Positions 2,067-53,094 of a stretch of DNA of 64,000 nt are shown piece after piece. This stretch comes from Clostridiales bacterium. Its GTDB lineage: Bacteria; Bacillota; Clostridia; Oscillospirales; Oscillospiraceae. The notes beneath the pieces were generated by a model that did no database searches, was not told the origin of the DNA, and saw only the letters and a program-made list of their open reading frames with translations. The stretch lies in contig JALEMS010000023.1 of the NCBI GenBank assembly GCA_022768185.1, positions 1-64,000 of the forward strand, written 5' to 3'. The position numbers and the translations under genes are program-made. Position 1 is the stretch's first letter. The number at the start of each line of letters is the position of its first letter.

Positions 2067-2772
2067 CAGCGCAGCCCTCCTTTGCTTCCAGCCAGACGCT
2101 GCGTACGGTGTATGTACAGAGGATTCCCGTGAAAATGGGCAGCAGTGCATTGCCGGACAGGGTCCCCAACGGACTTTTGAAAAACAGCACTGCCATCAAT
2201 ACCATCAGCACCGGGGCCAGCTTTTTCTTTCTGCGCCGCTGCCAGAAGGGAATTGCGGCGGTGCACACGCCCAGACCAAGAGCCAGTGCCGTGTTGCTTA
2301 CCCAGCGGCCGGTTTCCTCCAGCGGCAGAAGACTGTGCAGAAATGCATTGCGGTAAAATGCGAGAAACACCGTCTGCCCGCTGGTGGAGTCCGGGTTTGC
2401 AGATACATATATGCGGCACAGAAGAAACGCTGCGAGCACCTGAACGCCCCACAGGATCAGGTATGTCATAGCGTTGTATCCGGCCTGCCAGAGAAATACA
2501 CTGCGCTCAGAGACCGAGAGCCGCCGGAGCGTATAGCCCGGTTGACTGCTGAAGGAGCAGCCACTGCTGCACAGCAGCAGCGTGACCAGCAGGAAGGACA
2601 CGCAGAAGACAATGGCCGTTCCGCTCGCGCGCACGGCATGCTCCAGACCGGAGCTGTGCAGGCCGATGCGGAAAAGCGCACACTCTGCTGCGGTCATCAG
2701 GATGAACAGGGCCAACAGTCGGTAGACGCCTGCGCGCGCGACCAACATAAAAACGGACAGGTGTTTTTTCAT
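2053..2772 (-). CDS. Putative ABC transporter permease
   Basis: This 239-residue polytopic protein has about six hydrophobic segments, the first just after the MKKHLS start. A basic stretch (QRRRKKK) lies before the fifth segment. ATG 2772 overlaps the GntR stop as TGATG, and GAGG lies upstream; GTG 2775 is an alternative start. The end overlaps the next gene by 14 bp. The tightly packed order regulator, permease, permease, ATPase and secreted protein is that of a YtrABCDEF-like operon. No transport substrate can be read from the sequence, and the permease call rests on context and topology rather than a recognised motif. Confidence 0.75.
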   Translation of the reverse strand: MKKHLSVFMLVARAGVYRLLALFILMTAAECALFRIGLHSSGLEHAVRASGTAIVFCVSFLLVTLLLCSSGCSFSSQPGYTLRRLSVSERSVFLWQAGYNAMTYLILWGVQVLAAFLLCRIYVSANPDSTSGQTVFLAFYRNAFLHSLLPLEETGRWVSNTALALGLGVCTAAIPFWQRRRKKKLAPVLMVLMAVLFFKSPLGTLSGNALLPIFTGILCTYTVRSVWLEAKEGCADEET

Positions 2773-3158
2773 CACAAATCCTCACTGCCTTGCCAGTATG
2801 TTTCGATGAGCGCAAGCGCTTCATCCTTTGTGATCCCCATTTGCTGCATGGCGCGCACGATGCGCCGTGTGTCGGCCTCCAGCAGCTCCTGCCGAATGCG
2901 CGCGGTTTTCTCCTCGTCGAGCACCATGCAGCTTTTTGCGCCGGCGTGCGACTGGATGAGCGACTGCTCTTCCAGCATGCGGTAGGCCTTCTGCACCGTA
3001 TTGGGATTGACGCCGAGCCGGGCCGACAGCACGCGTCGGGATGGGAGCTCGTCTCCGTCGCGGATTGCGCCGGACACGACGCCGCGTTTGAGATACAGCA
3101 GAATCTGCTGATAGATCGGAACGCCGTCCTGCGGAAGAAAATCGTCAAAGCAGATCAT
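2772..3158 (-). CDS. GntR-family transcriptional regulator (YtrA subfamily)
   Basis: A 128-residue one-domain repressor. The winged helix occupies about residues 10-78: PIYQQILLYLKRGVVSG, then DELPSRRVLSARLGVNPNTVQKAYRMLEE, which is the classic GntR signature. Only about 45 residues follow, so it lacks the large effector domain of FadR or HutC types and matches YtrA/YhcF. ATG 3158 is chosen over the upstream in-frame start at 3185 because GGAGG lies 6 bases before it. It is the first gene of the ABC operon. A 23-bp perfect inverted repeat covering its promoter is its probable operator, so it should repress its own operon. The inducer is unknown. Confidence 0.93.
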   Translation of the reverse strand: MICFDDFLPQDGVPIYQQILLYLKRGVVSGAIRDGDELPSRRVLSARLGVNPNTVQKAYRMLEEQSLIQSHAGAKSCMVLDEEKTARIRQELLEADTRRIVRAMQQMGITKDEALALIETYWQGSEDL

Positions 3159-3183
3159 AATGCCTCCGGAAGATGATTTCCGC

Positions 3184-3240
3184 AAACCGTATCATACGTA
3201 TAATACAGTTATCAACCGTATTATACGTATGATACGGTTT
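3184..3240. promoter_or_regulatory. Inverted-repeat operator of the GntR regulator
   Basis: Two perfect 23-base arms, 3184-3206 and 3218-3240, face each other across an 11-base spacer. Each arm has the alternating core GTATNATACGTATNATAC, itself nearly palindromic, so there may be two dimer sites. The right arm covers the -10 and most of the spacer of the operon promoter. YtrA-type regulators bind such repeats next to their own gene. Confidence 0.85.
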
Positions 3241-3248
3241 CTTGTCAA
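3220..3248 (-). promoter_or_regulatory. Consensus sigma-A promoter of the GntR/ABC operon
   Basis: Reading leftward, TTGACA (3248-3243), a 17-base spacer and TATAAT (3225-3220) form an exact consensus promoter. It fires toward the GntR gene start at 3158 and lies inside the inverted repeat, so strong basal expression must be held down by the bound repressor. Confidence 0.85.
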
Positions 3249-3251
3249 GAG

Positions 3252-3286
3252 AAAAGAGCAGAGAATACAGATCGTATTCTCTGCTC
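3252..3286 (-). terminator. Terminator of argS
   Basis: A 13-bp perfect stem (3256-3268 with 3274-3286, loop AGATC) is followed on the minus strand by TTTTCTC. It separates argS from the GntR promoter, whose -35 begins only a few bases downstream. Confidence 0.8.
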
Positions 3287-3318
3287 CTAAAAAATACATT
3301 CGGTTTATGTAAAGCGGC

Positions 3319-5058
3319 TTACATGGATTCCGGCGCGGAAACGCCGATGAGGGCGAGACTCATTTCAATGACACGCCGGGTGCAGTCCGCCAGAATGAGG
3401 CGGGCAGCCAGCACGTCCGGCTCGGCACCGCGCAGGCGGCAGGCATTATAGAACCGGTGGAAGCGGGCGGCCAGCTCCGTGACATAGCGATTGATGCGGC
3501 TGGGATCGTAGTCGCGCGCGGCGGTGCGAATCTCCTCCGGAAGCGCGGCCAGCTGCTTGATGAGGTCGTGCTCCTGCTCCGCGTTCAGCAGGGTGAGGTC
3601 TGCTGTCTCAGGGACGGGGCAGCCGTCTGCCGCGAGGGTGGCCAGCAGCGAGCAAATGCGCGCATGGGCATACTGGACATAATATACGGGGTTTTCGCTG
3701 TCCTGCCGCACGGCGAGATCCAGATCAAACTCCATCTGCGTGTCGGGCTTGGCATTGAAAAAGTAACGCGCAGCATCCACCGGGATCTCGTCGAGCAGGT
3801 CGGTGAGAGAGATGGCTTTGCCAGTGCGTTTGGACATCTTGACGACTTCGCCGTTGCGTGTGAGCTTGACCAGCTGCATCAGCACGATGTCCAGCCGTTC
3901 GGAGCCGTTGAGTCCAAGTGCGTCGAGCGCGCCCTTGAGGCGTGCGACATGACCATGATGGTCAGCACCCCAGATGTTGATGACCTGATCGAAGCCGCGT
4001 TCCTCAAACTTGTTGCGATGGTAAGCAATGTCAACGGCAAAATAGGTATAAAATCCGTTGGCTCGGCGCAGCACGTCGTCCTTGAGGTCAAGCTTTTCAA
4101 TTTCGGCGGGCTTTTTGCCGGCCTTCCGGAGATTTTCCGCAAGGATCTCGGACGTTTTCAGCCAGAGCGCCCCGTCCTTTTCATACGTCCGGCCGAGGTC
4201 GATCAGCTTCTGCACGGTTTCGTCCACGTAGCCGGACTTGTGCAGGTCGGACTCAAAAAACCAGCGGTCGTAATGAATGCCGTAGCGCTCCAGGTCGGAC
4301 TTCATTTTGGGAATGTTGCGGTTCAGACCGTATTCAGCCAGTGTGGCACGGCGTTCAGCTGCCGGCACGTTCAGCAGCCCGTCGCCGTGCTCCTGACGAT
4401 AGGCGGCGGCGATGTCGCGGATGTCGTCACCGTGGTAACCGTCCTCAGGGAAGACGACGGCGTCCTCACCGAGAATCAGCTGCTGGTAGCGCGCCTCAAT
4501 GGACTCGGCAAACTTTTCCACCTGGTTTCCGGCGTCATTTACGTAGAACTCGCGCCAGACCTTTGCGCCGGCAGCGTCCAGCACGGAGGCAAGGCTGTCG
4601 CCCAGCACGCCGCCGCGGGCGTTGCCCATGTGCATGGGACCGGTGGGGTTGGCGGAGACAAATTCAACCATATAGCGCTTGCCGGCAAGCGTGTCGGTGC
4701 GGCAATAGTCGCTGCCCTCGGAGACAATGGCGCCGAGCACGTCGGCATACCATTTGGGTGCGAGACGGAAGTTCATAAAGCCCGGCCCGGCGGCCTCAAC
4801 CTGCGAAAACCACGTGCCCTCCAGTGACATAGCCGCGATGAGGGAATCAGCGATCTTGCGGGGAGCCATGCGGAAGGCGCGCGCGCCGGCCATGGCGTGG
4901 TTTGCAGCGAAATCGCCGTTGGAGACGTCCTTCGGTATTTCAACGATGCCGTGCAGTTCGCTGCCGGCCGGCAGGGAGCCTGTCTCCACAGCGCGGGCGA
5001 GCGCGTCGGCAACGATGGTGTCGATCTGTTGTTTGGCCTGTTCGATTAAATTAGCCAT
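3319..5058 (-). CDS. argS: Arginyl-tRNA synthetase
   Basis: A class I aminoacyl-tRNA synthetase that charges tRNA-Arg in the cytoplasm. It has the N-terminal Arg-S additional domain, the HIGH-like motif in SANPTGPMHMGNARG (about residues 115-128), the GADHHGH segment and a KMSKRTG signature near residue 375. The C-terminal DALR anticodon-binding domain ends with a typical hydrophobic helix and Met. Length is 579 residues from ATG 5058. A TTG two codons upstream (5064) has better spacing to its AGGGG site, so the true start could be there. It directly follows the DUF1934 gene and probably shares its promoter, a pairing common in Clostridia. Confidence 0.97.
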   Translation of the reverse strand: MANLIEQAKQQIDTIVADALARAVETGSLPAGSELHGIVEIPKDVSNGDFAANHAMAGARAFRMAPRKIADSLIAAMSLEGTWFSQVEAAGPGFMNFRLAPKWYADVLGAIVSEGSDYCRTDTLAGKRYMVEFVSANPTGPMHMGNARGGVLGDSLASVLDAAGAKVWREFYVNDAGNQVEKFAESIEARYQQLILGEDAVVFPEDGYHGDDIRDIAAAYRQEHGDGLLNVPAAERRATLAEYGLNRNIPKMKSDLERYGIHYDRWFFESDLHKSGYVDETVQKLIDLGRTYEKDGALWLKTSEILAENLRKAGKKPAEIEKLDLKDDVLRRANGFYTYFAVDIAYHRNKFEERGFDQVINIWGADHHGHVARLKGALDALGLNGSERLDIVLMQLVKLTRNGEVVKMSKRTGKAISLTDLLDEIPVDAARYFFNAKPDTQMEFDLDLAVRQDSENPVYYVQYAHARICSLLATLAADGCPVPETADLTLLNAEQEHDLIKQLAALPEEIRTAARDYDPSRINRYVTELAARFHRFYNACRLRGAEPDVLAARLILADCTRRVIEMSLALIGVSAPESM

Positions 5059-47317: not shown

Positions 47318-48508
47318 TTATTCAGAGAGAAACGCTTCCAGGCGGCGCAGACCCTCCTGAATGGTTTCCATTGAGGAGGCATAGGTCCAACGCACGAAAT
47401 TCGGCAGGCCGAAGCTGGTGCAGGATACAACAGCGACCAGGCTTGTCTCCAGAAATGCCATGGCAAAATCATCCGCGTTGTGGATGACGCGTCCGCCAAG
47501 CGTGCGGCCAATGAGCCGGTCAATGTTCATCATCACATAAAACGCGCCCTGCGGCATGAGGCAGGAGACACCGTCAATTTGGTTCATATGCTCGACCAGA
47601 TAGGTGCGCCGCTGCTCGAAGACCCGCCGCATCTGCTCAACGCTCTCCTGCGGGCCGTTGACAGCCTCAAGCGCTGCCCACTGACTGATGGTGGAGGGCG
47701 CGCCCGTGGAGTGACTGAGATAGTTGCTCATCACGCGGGCAATCTCCGGATTGCTGGCAGTGAAGCCGATGCGCCAGCCGGTCATGGCATAGGTCTTGGA
47801 AACGCCGTTGACGAGAATGGTACGCTCCTTGATCTCCTCACTCAGCGAAGCCACGCTGACGAAGCGGTTGTCATCGTAGACCAGCTTATAATAGATCTCA
47901 TCCGCAAGAATATACAGATCGTGACGGACGCAGACGTCGGCCAGCGCGCGCAGCTCATCCTCGCTGTAGAGCATGCCGGTGGGGTTGGAGGGATTATTGA
48001 TGATGACCAGCTTGGTCTTTTCCGTGACGGCAGCCTCCAGCTGCTCGGGCGTAATCTTGAAATGCTGCGCTTCCCCTGCCGTGACAATGACAGGAACTGC
48101 GCCTGCCATGCGAATCATTTCACAGTAGCTCACCCAGTATGGTCCGGGCAGGATCACCTCATCGCCGGGGTTGCACAGCGCGCAGAGGGTAATATAAATA
48201 CCGTGCTTTGCGCCGCTTGCCACAACGATCTGTGTATGGTCATACTGGACGCCGCAGTCTGCCTTCAGGCGCGCGGCGATGGCCTTCCGAAGCGGAATGA
48301 TGCCGGCAGACGGCGTATAGCGTGTTTTTCCTTCTTCAATGGCCCGGACGCCGGCCTCGCTGATATTGGAGGGCGTGGAAAAATCCGGCTCCCCTGCGCC
48401 GAAGCCGACGACGTCAAGGCCGTCCGCCTTCATCTGTTTAAACAGTGTGTTGACTGCAAGCGTTGCAGAGGGCTGTATTGCCGCTGCAATGCTGGAAAGT
48501 TCCTTCAT
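47318..48508 (-). CDS. Class I aminotransferase (aspartate aminotransferase type)
   Basis: A 396-residue PLP enzyme of the AspB/Iβ group. Motifs are GAGEPDFSTP, YTPSAGIIPLRKAIA, NNPSNPTGMLYS, DEIYYKLVYD and the PLP lysine in LVNGVSKTYAMTGWRIGF. This group typically transfers from aspartate or glutamate, but exact specificity cannot be read. ATG 48508 has AGGAGG 7 bases upstream; the longer open frame has no support. It lies after the degenerate P-type ATPase with a gap of about 180 bases. Confidence 0.94.
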   Translation of the reverse strand: MKELSSIAAAIQPSATLAVNTLFKQMKADGLDVVGFGAGEPDFSTPSNISEAGVRAIEEGKTRYTPSAGIIPLRKAIAARLKADCGVQYDHTQIVVASGAKHGIYITLCALCNPGDEVILPGPYWVSYCEMIRMAGAVPVIVTAGEAQHFKITPEQLEAAVTEKTKLVIINNPSNPTGMLYSEDELRALADVCVRHDLYILADEIYYKLVYDDNRFVSVASLSEEIKERTILVNGVSKTYAMTGWRIGFTASNPEIARVMSNYLSHSTGAPSTISQWAALEAVNGPQESVEQMRRVFEQRRTYLVEHMNQIDGVSCLMPQGAFYVMMNIDRLIGRTLGGRVIHNADDFAMAFLETSLVAVVSCTSFGLPNFVRWTYASSMETIQEGLRRLEAFLSE

Positions 48509-48691
48509 ACTCCGCCTCCTGAACCTGTTCTGAAAACTCAATATCATTTGAAACGATTATATTCTGCAGGATGCGGAATGTCAATCTGCAAAAACAGCGA
48601 TAATCTGACGGGTATTCGCAAGAATATTCGTCATTTGCGGAAAAAAAGACGGACTACATGCAAAAAGCAAAAATTTAGTGCAACAAAACCT

Positions 48692-50677
48692 TCATTTTTG
48701 CGTTTCGGCTATCAAAGCCGGGACGGCACGGAACGCACCTGCACAGCGGGCCGTCTGAAAAACGGAGGCGCAGCCGTCAAGCAGGACGGCTGCCCAGAGG
48801 GGCGCGGCGCCGAGCATCACGCCGGCCAGAATCAGCAGCTTTACCGCCAGCATCACCAGCAGGTTCAGCCCGACAGTCCGGTGCGTCCGACGCGCCAGCT
48901 CAATGGACAGCGGAACGCCGTACAGCGCATCCTGCATCAAAGCGATATCGGCATGCACATCGTCGTCTCCGTGGCCCAGCGTATTGAACGACACGCCGAC
49001 GTCGGCGGCGGCGAGGGAATCGGCATCGCGCGCGCCCCAGCCGACGCACATCAGCGTACCGTCCTTCTGCGCACATCTCTGGCGCAGACGCCGGATTTGT
49101 TCCGGCTTGCCCTCAACGCGGCACTCGGCGACATATTCGGTAATACCGGCGGTTTTTGCGGTGCGGGCAGCTGCGTCGCGGCTGTCTCCGGTGAGCATAA
49201 TGATTGAGCGAATGCCCAGCCCGCGCAATTCGCTGACCACGCCGGCGGCCTGCTCCTTGAGCGAATCGGACAGAATGATGCACCCGGCATATTGCCCGCC
49301 GAACGAGAGGTACACAGCCAGCTCGCCGGCAGACGAATCGTCCGGCACAACACCGTTTTCCATCAGAAATTCCCGGTTGCCGACACGGACCGGAATGCCG
49401 TCGATGACGGCCTGTGCGCCCCGGCCCGGAATCTCACTGAAATCCCGGATCAACTCGCGGCGGATGGGGCCGGCGTATGCCGCGCGTATGGCACGGGCGA
49501 TGGGATGCGTCGAGCCGGCTTCCACATGTGCGGCAATCTGCAGGAGCATGTCCGAATCCAGACGCGGACTGATGACAGAGCAAACGCGGAACACGCCGGT
49601 TGTGAGCGTGCCGGTTTGATTGAAAACAACGGTTTCTGTCGCTGCAGCATCGTCGAGCACAGACGGCGAGGAGAACAGAACGCCCTGCCGAAGCGCAGTA
49701 CACACTGCGGCATGATAAGCCAGACCGATCGTATCCAGCGCGGCTGGCGAAGCGGCGATGAGCAGCGGCAGCACACGCACGAGCGCTGCAGCAAACGAAA
49801 CCTCTGCCGCAGCCGAGCCGATGACTGCGGCCAGCAGCGCGACTGTACACAGCACGGCCGAGGCCAGACGGAACAGGCGTGAGACGCCGGCCTCAACGCG
49901 GCCGCGCGTTTGCAGCGCCGCCCGGCCTGCCCAGAGTATACGTGCCGCCAGCGAGTCCTGCGCAGCAGCGGTGGCCGTGTATTCTACGGCGCTGCCCTGG
50001 TTGACACAGCCGGAGCAAACCGCGTCGCCCGGCGCAACCGATCGGGAGGCCTCCTGCCCGGCCAGTGCGGTCATGTCCACTGTGGTACGTCCGCGGCTGA
50101 TGACGCCGTTGGTCGGAAACTGCACGCCGGGCGGAATGAGCACGGTGTCACCCGGGCAAATCTCTGCCGGAGAGACGTCCATCGGTTCACCGACCCGGAG
50201 AATGGAAACCGGCGCAGTGCTGATGCGCAGCCGACCGGAAAAGACTGCTTCCATCCGTCCGGCCGCATAGTTTGCAGCAAGGCCCGTCAGCCGGAAAAGC
50301 AGCATGGCGGCTGCGCCCGCTGCGCTTTGCCCGGTCAGAAACGCGGCGGCTGCCGCCGTACAGGTCAGCAGTTCAGGGGCGAACACGTCCCGTTCGGTCA
50401 GAGCGCGGATGGCGCGCCAGAGCACATCGTAAGCTGCGGCAGCAGCAGGAAGAAGCATCAGCAGCCGGAAGATCGCCTGGTTGGCGCAGAACAGCAGCGT
50501 TCCGGCAAACAGCAGCGTGGCTGCAATCAGGCGGACGGCAAGAACCGGCGTGACCGATTCCCACTCCCGCCGGGGACGGTGCTCCACACAGCCGAGCAGC
50601 CCGGCAAAGCAGGCGGAGGCAGCAGAGACTCGTGCAAAAATGCCAGAAGAGCGATTTTGATTTCTCTTTTTTGCCAT
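48692..50677 (-). CDS. Degenerate P-type ATPase (catalytic residues lost)
   Basis: A 661-residue protein with the layout of a P1B metal ATPase: membrane segments at about 45-130, actuator domain 150-235, membrane pair 270-320, P/N domains 340-570 and final membrane pair 600-650. The key motifs are altered. The phosphorylated Asp motif DKTGT is NQTGT (Asn 353), the TGES loop is AGQE (206-209), the ion-site CPC is SPA (310-312) and GDGxND is GWGARD (546-551). The HP pair (391-392) and TGDS (496-499) remain. There is no metal-binding CxxC domain at the N-terminus. The frame is intact, so loss of activity seems tolerated or selected. It starts 30 bases after fba. Confidence 0.88.
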   Translation of the reverse strand: MAKKRNQNRSSGIFARVSAASACFAGLLGCVEHRPRREWESVTPVLAVRLIAATLLFAGTLLFCANQAIFRLLMLLPAAAAAYDVLWRAIRALTERDVFAPELLTCTAAAAAFLTGQSAAGAAAMLLFRLTGLAANYAAGRMEAVFSGRLRISTAPVSILRVGEPMDVSPAEICPGDTVLIPPGVQFPTNGVISRGRTTVDMTALAGQEASRSVAPGDAVCSGCVNQGSAVEYTATAAAQDSLAARILWAGRAALQTRGRVEAGVSRLFRLASAVLCTVALLAAVIGSAAAEVSFAAALVRVLPLLIAASPAALDTIGLAYHAAVCTALRQGVLFSSPSVLDDAAATETVVFNQTGTLTTGVFRVCSVISPRLDSDMLLQIAAHVEAGSTHPIARAIRAAYAGPIRRELIRDFSEIPGRGAQAVIDGIPVRVGNREFLMENGVVPDDSSAGELAVYLSFGGQYAGCIILSDSLKEQAAGVVSELRGLGIRSIIMLTGDSRDAAARTAKTAGITEYVAECRVEGKPEQIRRLRQRCAQKDGTLMCVGWGARDADSLAAADVGVSFNTLGHGDDDVHADIALMQDALYGVPLSIELARRTHRTVGLNLLVMLAVKLLILAGVMLGAAPLWAAVLLDGCASVFQTARCAGAFRAVPALIAETQK

Positions 50678-50707
50678 GGATCAGATCATCTCTGCGGCTG
50701 TGCCCGA

Positions 50708-51643
50708 TCAGGCCTTGCCGTCGCTGCCGAGCACGTTGACGATCTTGGCCTTGACCAGCTCGCGGATGTTGTCGCGTCCGGGTGTGAGATATTTGCGCGG
50801 GTCGAAGTCGGCCGGATGATGCGCCATATACTCGCGTACGCCGGCTGTCATGGCCAGGCGAAGATCGGAGTCGATGTTGATCTTACAGACCGCCATACGC
50901 GCAGCCTGGCGCAGCATGTCCTCGGGAATACCGATGGCATCCGCCAGCTGGCCGCCGTTGCAGTTGATGGTATCCACGTATTTGGGGATCACAGAGCTTG
51001 CGCCGTGCAGTACGATCGGGAAGCCGGGCAGACGGCGCTCCACCTCTTCAAGAATGTCAAAGCGCAGCTGCGGCTTCTGTCCGGGCTTAAACTTGAACGC
51101 GCCGTGGCTCGTACCGATGGCGATGGCCAGAGAGTCGACGCCCGTCCGGCTGACAAACTCCTCCACCTCCTCCGGACGGGTATAGCTCGAGTCCGCCTCG
51201 GAGACGTGTACGGCGTCCTCAATGCCGGCCAGACGGCCCAGCTCGCCCTCAACGACGACGCCCTTGTCGTGCGCGTATTCCACGACGCGGCGCGTCAGCT
51301 CGATATTCTCCTCGAACGGATGCTTCGAGCCGTCGATCATGACGGAGGTGAAGCCGCCGTCAATGCAGGATTTGCAGATCTCAAAGCTGTCGCCGTGGTC
51401 AAGGTGCACGCAGATGGGCAGATCGGTGTCTTCCACAGCTGCCTCGATCAGCTTCATAAGATAGACATGCTTGGCATACTTGCGTGCGCCGGCGGAAACC
51501 TGCAGAATCAGCGGCGAGCGCACCTCTGCCGCCGCCTCGGTGATTCCCTGGATGATCTCCATATTATTGACGTTGAAGGCGCCGACAGCGTATCCGCCTT
51601 CATAGGCCTTGCGGAACATTTCGGTGGATGTTACGATGGGCAT
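50708..51643 (-). CDS. fba: Class II fructose-1,6-bisphosphate aldolase
   Basis: A 311-residue zinc aldolase of glycolysis. Zinc ligands and active-site residues are in VHLDHGDSFEICKSCIDGGFTSVMIDGS, VVEGELGRLAG and IVLHGASSVIP, followed by NIDSDLRLAMT. ATG 51643 is chosen; TTG codons at 51649 and 51652 stand nearer the AGGAG site and could be used. It is divergent from the PPi-PFK gene, so two consecutive glycolytic steps share one intergenic region. The degenerate P-type ATPase follows on the same strand. Confidence 0.96.
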   Translation of the reverse strand: MPIVTSTEMFRKAYEGGYAVGAFNVNNMEIIQGITEAAAEVRSPLILQVSAGARKYAKHVYLMKLIEAAVEDTDLPICVHLDHGDSFEICKSCIDGGFTSVMIDGSKHPFEENIELTRRVVEYAHDKGVVVEGELGRLAGIEDAVHVSEADSSYTRPEEVEEFVSRTGVDSLAIAIGTSHGAFKFKPGQKPQLRFDILEEVERRLPGFPIVLHGASSVIPKYVDTINCNGGQLADAIGIPEDMLRQAARMAVCKINIDSDLRLAMTAGVREYMAHHPADFDPRKYLTPGRDNIRELVKAKIVNVLGSDGKA

Positions 51644-51852
51644 TGACAACAACTCTCCTTCGTATTATGATTGGAATTAAGTATGCGAACCCGGAAGTTG
51701 AGGAAATATTAGCATAATTCCCGGCAAAATAAAAGGCTTTTTTGCGGCTTTCCGCAATAGTCTGCACCAAACAGCCGTTTTGCTGCACAACGCCGGCCCG
51801 CAGCTTCATTATATCACATTGTGCCTATTTGTATATAGCTGGGAGGAAAAAC

Positions 51853-53094
51853 ATGGCAAACGTTTTAAAAGGCGCGTGCATTTTCGGCCAATCCGGCGGT
51901 CCGACCGCTGTCATCAACGCAAGTGCGTACGGCGTCTTCCGTACGGCGCTTGACCGGCCTGAGATCACGCGGGTGCTCGGTGCGAAAAACGGCATTACCG
52001 GCGTGCTGCATGACCGGATGTACGATATGGGCGAGGAGGACGCGCAGGAGCTGAACCGTCTGCTGTACACGCCCGCGGCCGAGCTTGGCAGTTGCCGCTA
52101 TAAGCTGGCGGACCCGGAGACGGATGACAGCGATTACCGCCGCCTGCTGGAAATCTTCCGCAAATATGATGTGCGCTATTTTTTCTATAACGGCGGCAAC
52201 GATTCGATGGACACCTGTGCCAAAATCAGCCGCTATATGCAGAAGGCCGGCTATGAATGCCGCGTGATGGGTGTGCCCAAAACGATCGACAACGATCTGT
52301 GGGGCTGTGACCATTGCCCCGGATACGGCAGCGCCGCCAAATACATCACCGTCTCCTGCATGGAGGTGGCCAAGGACACCAGCGTGTACGATACCGGCAT
52401 GGTCACCGTCATTGAGATCATGGGCCGCCATGCCGGCTGGCTTGCCGGCGCGGCAGGGCTGGCCACAAAATTCGGTTCCGGACCGGATCTCATCTACCTG
52501 CCTGAGGTAGACTTCGATATGGAACGGTTTCTGGCGGACGTCGACCGCGTTTATGCCGAGAAGAAGAAGGTCTTCGTCGCCGTCTCCGAGGGCATCCGCT
52601 ATGCCGACGGCACCTTTGTCTCTGCCCGCGGCCCCAGCCTGGCCGACGGCTTCGGTCACGTGCAGCTCGGCGGTTTGGCCACGACGCTGGCACACACTGT
52701 CAAGGCACACAACGGTGCAAAGGTACGCGGAATTGAGTTGAGCCTGCTGCAGCGCGCGGCGGCTCATCTTGCTTCGCAGACAGACATCGACGAAGCGTTT
52801 CTTGTTGGCAAGACCGCTGTGGAGTGCGCCGTCGCCGGCGAAACCGATAAAATGGTCGGCCTTGTGCGCGAGACAAACGGCGGCGCATACCGCTGTACTA
52901 CAGAGCTGGTTCCGCTCAGCAATGTCGCAAATCAGGAGCGCAAGGTGCCGCGCAGCTGGATCAACGAAGCCGGCAACCAGGTGACGGATGCGTTTATCGA
53001 CTATGTCCTGCCTCTGATCCAGGGCGAGCCGAAGCTGCCGCTGGAATGCTCGCTGCCGCGCTATGCCCGGCTGAAGAAGGTTTTTGCAAAATAA
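51853..53094 (+). CDS. Diphosphate-fructose-6-phosphate 1-phosphotransferase
   Basis: A 413-residue phosphofructokinase of the PPi-dependent type. The phosphate donor motif is GGNDSMDT in place of the ATP-type GGDGS, and the catalytic loop is PKTIDNDL with the Lys typical of PPi enzymes. IEIMGRHAGWLAGAA and PEVDFD also fit. It therefore uses PPi and can run in both directions, common in anaerobic Clostridia. ATG 51853 has GGGAGG 7 bases upstream. It is divergent from fba and followed by a terminator. Confidence 0.94.
   Translation: MANVLKGACIFGQSGGPTAVINASAYGVFRTALDRPEITRVLGAKNGITGVLHDRMYDMGEEDAQELNRLLYTPAAELGSCRYKLADPETDDSDYRRLLEIFRKYDVRYFFYNGGNDSMDTCAKISRYMQKAGYECRVMGVPKTIDNDLWGCDHCPGYGSAAKYITVSCMEVAKDTSVYDTGMVTVIEIMGRHAGWLAGAAGLATKFGSGPDLIYLPEVDFDMERFLADVDRVYAEKKKVFVAVSEGIRYADGTFVSARGPSLADGFGHVQLGGLATTLAHTVKAHNGAKVRGIELSLLQRAAAHLASQTDIDEAFLVGKTAVECAVAGETDKMVGLVRETNGGAYRCTTELVPLSNVANQERKVPRSWINEAGNQVTDAFIDYVLPLIQGEPKLPLECSLPRYARLKKVFAK

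Follow-up and report, generated by a model that had tools for sequence, protein, structure and literature searches.

P-type ATPases are textbook pumps, and the locus described here raises the question of what such a protein is doing when its catalytic motifs are broken and its gene lies directly behind that of a glycolytic aldolase. In the window, which is the whole stretch of 64,000 nucleotides analyzed, a single open reading frame (ORF) on the minus strand runs from an ATG at 50677 to a stop at 48692 and comprises 661 codons with no internal stop. The G+C content at its three codon positions (0.70/0.53/0.70) follows a gene-like pattern. The 661-residue product, P0001 (48692..50677, minus strand), matches the Pfam models E1-E2_ATPase and Hydrolase, and NCBIfam heavy-metal P-type models cover nearly its whole length with scores that do not reach the curated cut-offs for heavy-metal subfamilies. 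The AlphaFold2 model, computed from a six-sequence alignment, has a complete P-type fold (mean pLDDT 79.7, pTM 0.74), and Foldseek placed it closest to solved P1B pumps, with a TM-score of 0.80 to 7r0g_B. By descent and fold, with homology over its whole length, the protein is a member of the P1B superfamily, and the ORF, the profiles and the model agree with the first-pass annotation, which had read a full P1B architecture in one 661-codon frame. An antisense ORF of 575 codons on the plus strand (window 47480-49207) extends across the ATPase and aminotransferase genes and is typical of G+C-rich coding DNA.

Alignment recovered all of the lesions that the annotation had listed. The phosphorylated Asp of DKTGT is replaced by Asn353 (N353-Q-T-G-T; 49619..49621), the TGES loop of the actuator domain by A206-G-Q-E (50051..50062), the CPC metal site by S310-P-A (49742..49750), whose Pro is invariant across 22 orthologues, and the Mg-site motif GDGxND by G546-W-G-A-R-D (49025..49042), all on the minus strand. 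Judged as a working pump, the window copy lacks DKTGT, TGE(S), GDGxND and a CPC or CPx motif in M4, and has the HP of the N domain (H391-P392 within T390-H-P; 49502..49507, minus strand), a nucleotide-site motif that is absent from most other dead copies. T496-G-D-S also survives, as had been noted, and the actuator domain (residues 151-256; 49910..50227, minus strand) is present. The earlier statement that every catalytic step is hit was slightly too strong: four of the nine scored catalytic residues are missing, and Glu386, HP, GxG, TGD, Lys524 and Asp551 are retained. ATPase activity is presumably absent from copies with such lesions, which are called dead below.

The gene directly upstream, fba (50708..51643, minus strand), encodes a class II fructose-bisphosphate aldolase and shares 72-87% identity with its counterparts in other Clostridia; its start was set at the ATG that agrees with the homologues. 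The ATPase follows the aldolase by 30 bases, as first reported, with its ATG 30 nt past the fba stop, and the spacer (50678..50707, minus strand) contains no arsR, terminator or clear Shine-Dalgarno sequence. From this short spacing, we infer that fba and the dead ATPase gene are co-transcribed. The divergent neighbor, pfk (6-phosphofructokinase; 51742..53094, plus strand), is conserved at the locus.

Among 300 genomes of the family, the best protein match to the window protein reached 36%, and the genus of the window is represented by one genome; a close-match scan of the GTDB r220 contigs with P0001 returned no relatives. The 58 best-scoring homologues fetched first all contain DKTGT and TGE, all contain CPC except for a distant non-P1B paralogue (L033), and have an altered GDGxND only in L039/L155 of genome G103, where it reads GEGLND. 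Because these homologues retain the motifs apart from the exceptions given, the lesions of the window copy are far from chance. Before the search based on fba, the window copy seemed to be a lone casualty, because it had no close kin and its best-scoring homologues were catalytically intact.

Orthologues were reached through fba itself, by scanning for the aldolase and inspecting the gene directly after it on each contig. In L060, L061, L062 and L102, this gene encodes a full-length P1B ATPase, likewise dead but through lesions other than those of the window copy. A profile (A1) built from these four proteins and P0001, which searches independently of the position of fba, found copies in 9 of 11 genomes of genus g4 (10 when G402, where the copy runs off the contig, is counted) and in 11 of 13 genomes of genus g67. 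All of these copies are dead and all lie directly behind fba, with pfk divergent beyond fba wherever the contig extends far enough. The g4 and g67 genomes with no copy (G376, G150 and G418; completeness 78-90%) also have no close fba. The window copy and 21 copies of these two groups, including L061, which groups with g4, make up the 22 orthologues. Their acceptor position is occupied by Asn in 10, Asp in 5, Ser in 4, Ala in 2 and Glu in 1, so that the suggested conservation of Asn353 across species did not hold and was rejected as the key feature; the conserved feature is the loss of catalysis. A sequencing error or a recent casualty was also rejected, since many separate genomes agree.

A wider search sought fba in 122 genomes of the family and matched it in 100, from 87 genera; 88 downstream stretches were read. 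Ten more dead copies were found directly behind fba in eight genera (one each in g110, g44, g86, g95, g117 and g57, and two each in g5 and g21). The actuator domain, 106 residues long, is reduced to 12-24 residues in nine of these ten, and the membrane, N and P parts are retained. In the Post-Albers cycle, a P-type pump that has no actuator domain is unable to dephosphorylate. The total comes to 32 dead P1B ATPases directly behind fba in one bacterial family, 31 besides the window copy, with frames of 534-725 residues and no stops; the 11 genera are mostly uncultured Clostridia. The proposed linkage to fba is thus found for every dead copy. At the threshold applied, an order-wide search gave no further copies beyond the family, its best-placed rows being mostly of that same family. 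L298 (G081, g82; minus strand 2635-3570) lies near fba but on the other strand and matches the profile weakly, at 36 bits.

Each of the 32 dead copies has lost 4-9 of the nine catalytic residues; of 21 intact relatives, 20 retain all nine. Apart from the window copy, the acceptor is Asn, Ser, Ala or Glu, or an Asp with broken neighbors. The TGE loop is retained only in L146, the exact GDGxND in none of the 32 (L141 keeps the D, N and D of the motif), and L253 and L259 are the only copies with a complete CPC. Inspection of about 60 other P1B ATPases, arsR-linked ones included, revealed no dead protein and one with GEGLND. The most diverged fba-linked copies, L318 and L320 of g21, have a long acidic N-terminus and no M5 Lys / M6 Asp pair.

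What the dead proteins keep is unevenly distributed. The column identity of the N domain is 0.53 in dead copies against 0.55 in intact ones, whereas the other domains all drop, from 0.62-0.72 in intact proteins to 0.43-0.48 in dead ones. Matching of ZntA positions through a ZntA alignment showed that the equivalents of Glu202, Lys693 and Asp714 are kept in 29, 30 and 29 of the 32 dead copies, respectively; in the window copy, the latter two are Lys613 (48839..48841) and Asp634 (48776..48778), both on the minus strand. In ZntA, Glu202 belongs to the exit path, and Lys693 and Asp714 form the zinc site and its counter-ion (PMC6305203). These patterns suggest that the present function may be carried by the membrane core and the N domain, with ATP-driven transport forming no part of it. 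The best-kept N domain together with the three ZntA equivalents indicates a membrane sensor or scaffold tied to the aldolase, and a role as sensor, scaffold or regulator, as originally proposed, is plausible from the sequences. It is quite possible, if somewhat doubtful, that the protein no longer pumps but sits in the membrane, where it senses a ligand or holds one and is tied to the aldolase. The g21 copies have no Lys/Asp pair, and the membrane core is therefore not universal.

The same residues could instead form a passive or regulated ion pathway, in which the helices bind or pass a cation without ATP. They are found in about 29 of 32 copies despite the lost cytosolic catalysis, and CPC is still present in the g44 and g110 copies. 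However, most orthologues have neither the first Cys of CPC nor the funnel residue Glu214, the Lys/Asp pair is missing from g21, and this pair could be a structural salt bridge. An ion pathway would also leave the constraint on the N domain unexplained, and we consider it unlikely.

The regulation of the locus was compared with that of intact genes at the same position. In G069, pfk and fba are followed by arsR and an intact cadA and then by c12, c7, xer, c13 and radA, the downstream set being that of G388 (g67); the window neighborhood has pfk, fba, radA, xer and, with G388, the aminotransferase gene in common with these loci. A hairpin with a T run, resembling a terminator, and a TTGACA promoter-like sequence lie between fba and arsR in G069, G197 and G047, and the order in G069 and G197 is fba, terminator-like hairpin, promoter-like sequence, arsR and cadA. 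The dead loci have no terminator-like hairpin, promoter-like sequence or arsR. Their ATPase genes start about 1-115 nt past the fba stop, with GGAGG ahead of most and none clear in the window copy, and the adjacency of fba and the ATPase gene is constant while the downstream genes vary. The spacers after fba in L187, L189 and L190 contain G+C-rich inverted repeats with no T run, seen in several g67 genomes, which could be RNA-processing or stability elements.

These arrangements bear on the possibility that the dead copy regulates an intact CadA/ZntA paralogue, as prozyme does for its active partner, a principle established for other enzymes (PMC5201418). Intact P1B paralogues are present in the same genomes (contig 70 of G000; L173 in G003). 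To our knowledge, however, P1B pumps function without partner subunits, and the loss of arsR, with coupling to fba instead of metal control, speaks against a metal role. Such regulation is therefore regarded as improbable.

In the phylogenetic tree, the 22 orthologues form one clade with a support of 100/98, which becomes 100/97 after the catalytic columns are dropped. When the ten further copies are added and the actuator and catalytic columns removed, the distribution of dead and intact copies needs three changes (the main group; g110 and g44 beside the intact G069; and g21), with long branches that make the exact number of origins uncertain. More than one origin of the dead state is likely from these trees, and the dead family probably arose three or more times. 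The rpoB species tree, with genes picked by homology, places g1, g67 and G103 together and g4 apart, so that either the copies descended vertically and were lost in places, or the gene died on more than one occasion. L259 (g110) and L253 (g44), which are actuator-less with CPC and the acceptor Asp still present, are sister to the intact G069 gene and are likely to be an independent, younger conversion. L155/L039 (contig 6 of G103) is an otherwise intact, arsR-linked CadA-type ATPase that adjoins the dead clade; its GEGLND is possibly a first step of loss.

A further explanation is slow decay, in which a dispensable Zn/Cd pump drifts to a pseudogene and stays open by chance or through polar effects in the operon. 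The lesions of the catalytic sites vary among lineages, G069 has an intact pump at the same locus, and the branch of the window copy is long, all of which would fit decay. The substitution rates speak against it: dS was close to saturation in most pairs, and across the closest 25 dead orthologue pairs in which it was unsaturated, dN/dS was 0.10-0.39, compared with 0.05-0.43 for intact pairs. When nine close pairs were divided by domain, dN/dS was 0.10-0.25 overall with a domain maximum of 0.36, and thus below 0.4 in every domain. No stop occurs in the 32 copies; on the window branch alone, which has 1.52 changes per site, about 28 would be expected under neutrality. The persistence of the fba-ATPase adjacency despite changing downstream genes also argues against decay, which we judge very improbable; the case against it is almost complete for the family and weaker for the window copy taken alone.

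The window copy, one of the most diverged, has lost G82, E120 and P318, residues conserved in the other orthologues. Because of this divergence and these losses, and because it has no clear Shine-Dalgarno sequence, the evidence for its own upkeep is the absence of stops from the frame, together with the codon structure; the anticipated dN/dS well below 1 applies to the orthologue pairs and not to the window copy itself, which has no close relative or second genome of its genus to be paired with. An intact homologue at the same locus, which the annotation would have taken as a sign of recent loss, does exist in G069. A recent loss of function from a G069-type pump does not, however, account for the window copy, because 31 other copies are also dead and under purifying selection, and the earlier reading of maintenance rather than recent decay is upheld. 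With catalytic residues missing in each of the 32 and retention by selection across species, the dead fba-linked copies are very probably a maintained pseudoenzyme family.

An active enzyme of changed mechanism, such as a phosphatase or an ATPase using other residues, is highly improbable, since the orthologues have no conserved replacement at the acceptor, Mg or loop positions and nine copies have a deleted actuator domain, even though the window copy retains Glu386, HP, GxG and TGD of the nucleotide pocket. As a caveat to the dead-enzyme reading, some proteins called pseudoenzymes employ migrated catalytic residues (PMC10211241).

Overall, a maintained P1B-derived pseudo-ATPase family that was merged into the fba unit with its pump cycle dismantled is a rather likely explanation. 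The ancestor would have been a Zn/Cd exporter gene behind fba, transcribed from a promoter of its own under ArsR control. In several lineages, the terminator, promoter and arsR would have been lost, so that the gene was absorbed into the fba transcription unit. The phospho-acceptor, the Mg site and the dephosphorylation loop would then have been dismantled, together with the whole actuator domain in several genera, while purifying selection retained the membrane helices, the N domain and the P-domain fold. Since selection maintains a non-pumping protein, the pump body has probably been reused for another membrane job. The resulting membrane-bound protein would sense or hold a ligand and tie the ligand state to the aldolase; candidates are a cation, for the Glu/Lys/Asp membrane core, and, for the N domain, a nucleotide, a metabolite or the aldolase itself. 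The partnership with the aldolase is deduced from a genomic link. More tentatively, an aldolase-linked Zn/Cd pump may have been converted three or more times, on each occasion entering the fba transcription unit and losing the pump cycle, into a sensor or anchor through which the membrane is coupled to glycolysis at the aldolase step.

The P1B-2 exporters of Zn, Cd and Pb (ZntA/CadA) share with the dead family the fold, the helix plan, the A, P and N domains, ancestry and the Lys/Asp of the last two helices. Unlike them, the dead family has no phospho-acceptor, Mg site, TGE or CPC, is coupled to fba with no metal-controlled promoter or arsR of its own, and is actuator-less in several genera. 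The open-access literature search found no paper joining a P-type ATPase with a pseudoenzyme or pseudo-ATPase, and a pseudoenzyme review (PMC10211241) does not mention ATPases. The nearest case in that literature is TMEM94, a human P-type-like protein that has no TGES and for which ATPase activity was not detected (PMC12134183), and whose classification is disputed (PMC13322241). The two have a P-type architecture and a missing dephosphorylation motif in common, the dead family being known from sequence; TMEM94, in contrast, is eukaryotic, belongs to another subfamily, keeps its proposed acceptor Asp and has an unrelated gene context. Scaffold roles independent of flippase activity have been reported for P4-ATPases (reviewed in PMC10654040), which share the concept of a P-type ATPase acting outside transport, although they are a eukaryotic lipid-flippase family still considered to be pumps. 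Regulatory dead paralogues such as prozyme are likewise catalytically dead homologues under selection, but they have a different fold, and the dead ATPase is known without a partner.

If the proposed explanation is correct, the P-type fold can persist in a new use that does not involve hydrolyzing ATP, after the loss of phosphorylation, of the Mg site and even of the actuator domain. The explanation also points to a membrane partner, so far unsuspected, for a core enzyme of glycolysis. As the conversion would have recurred at a single locus, the reason for it becomes testable. By sequence, the genes resemble heavy-metal exporters, and an annotation as such would mislead.
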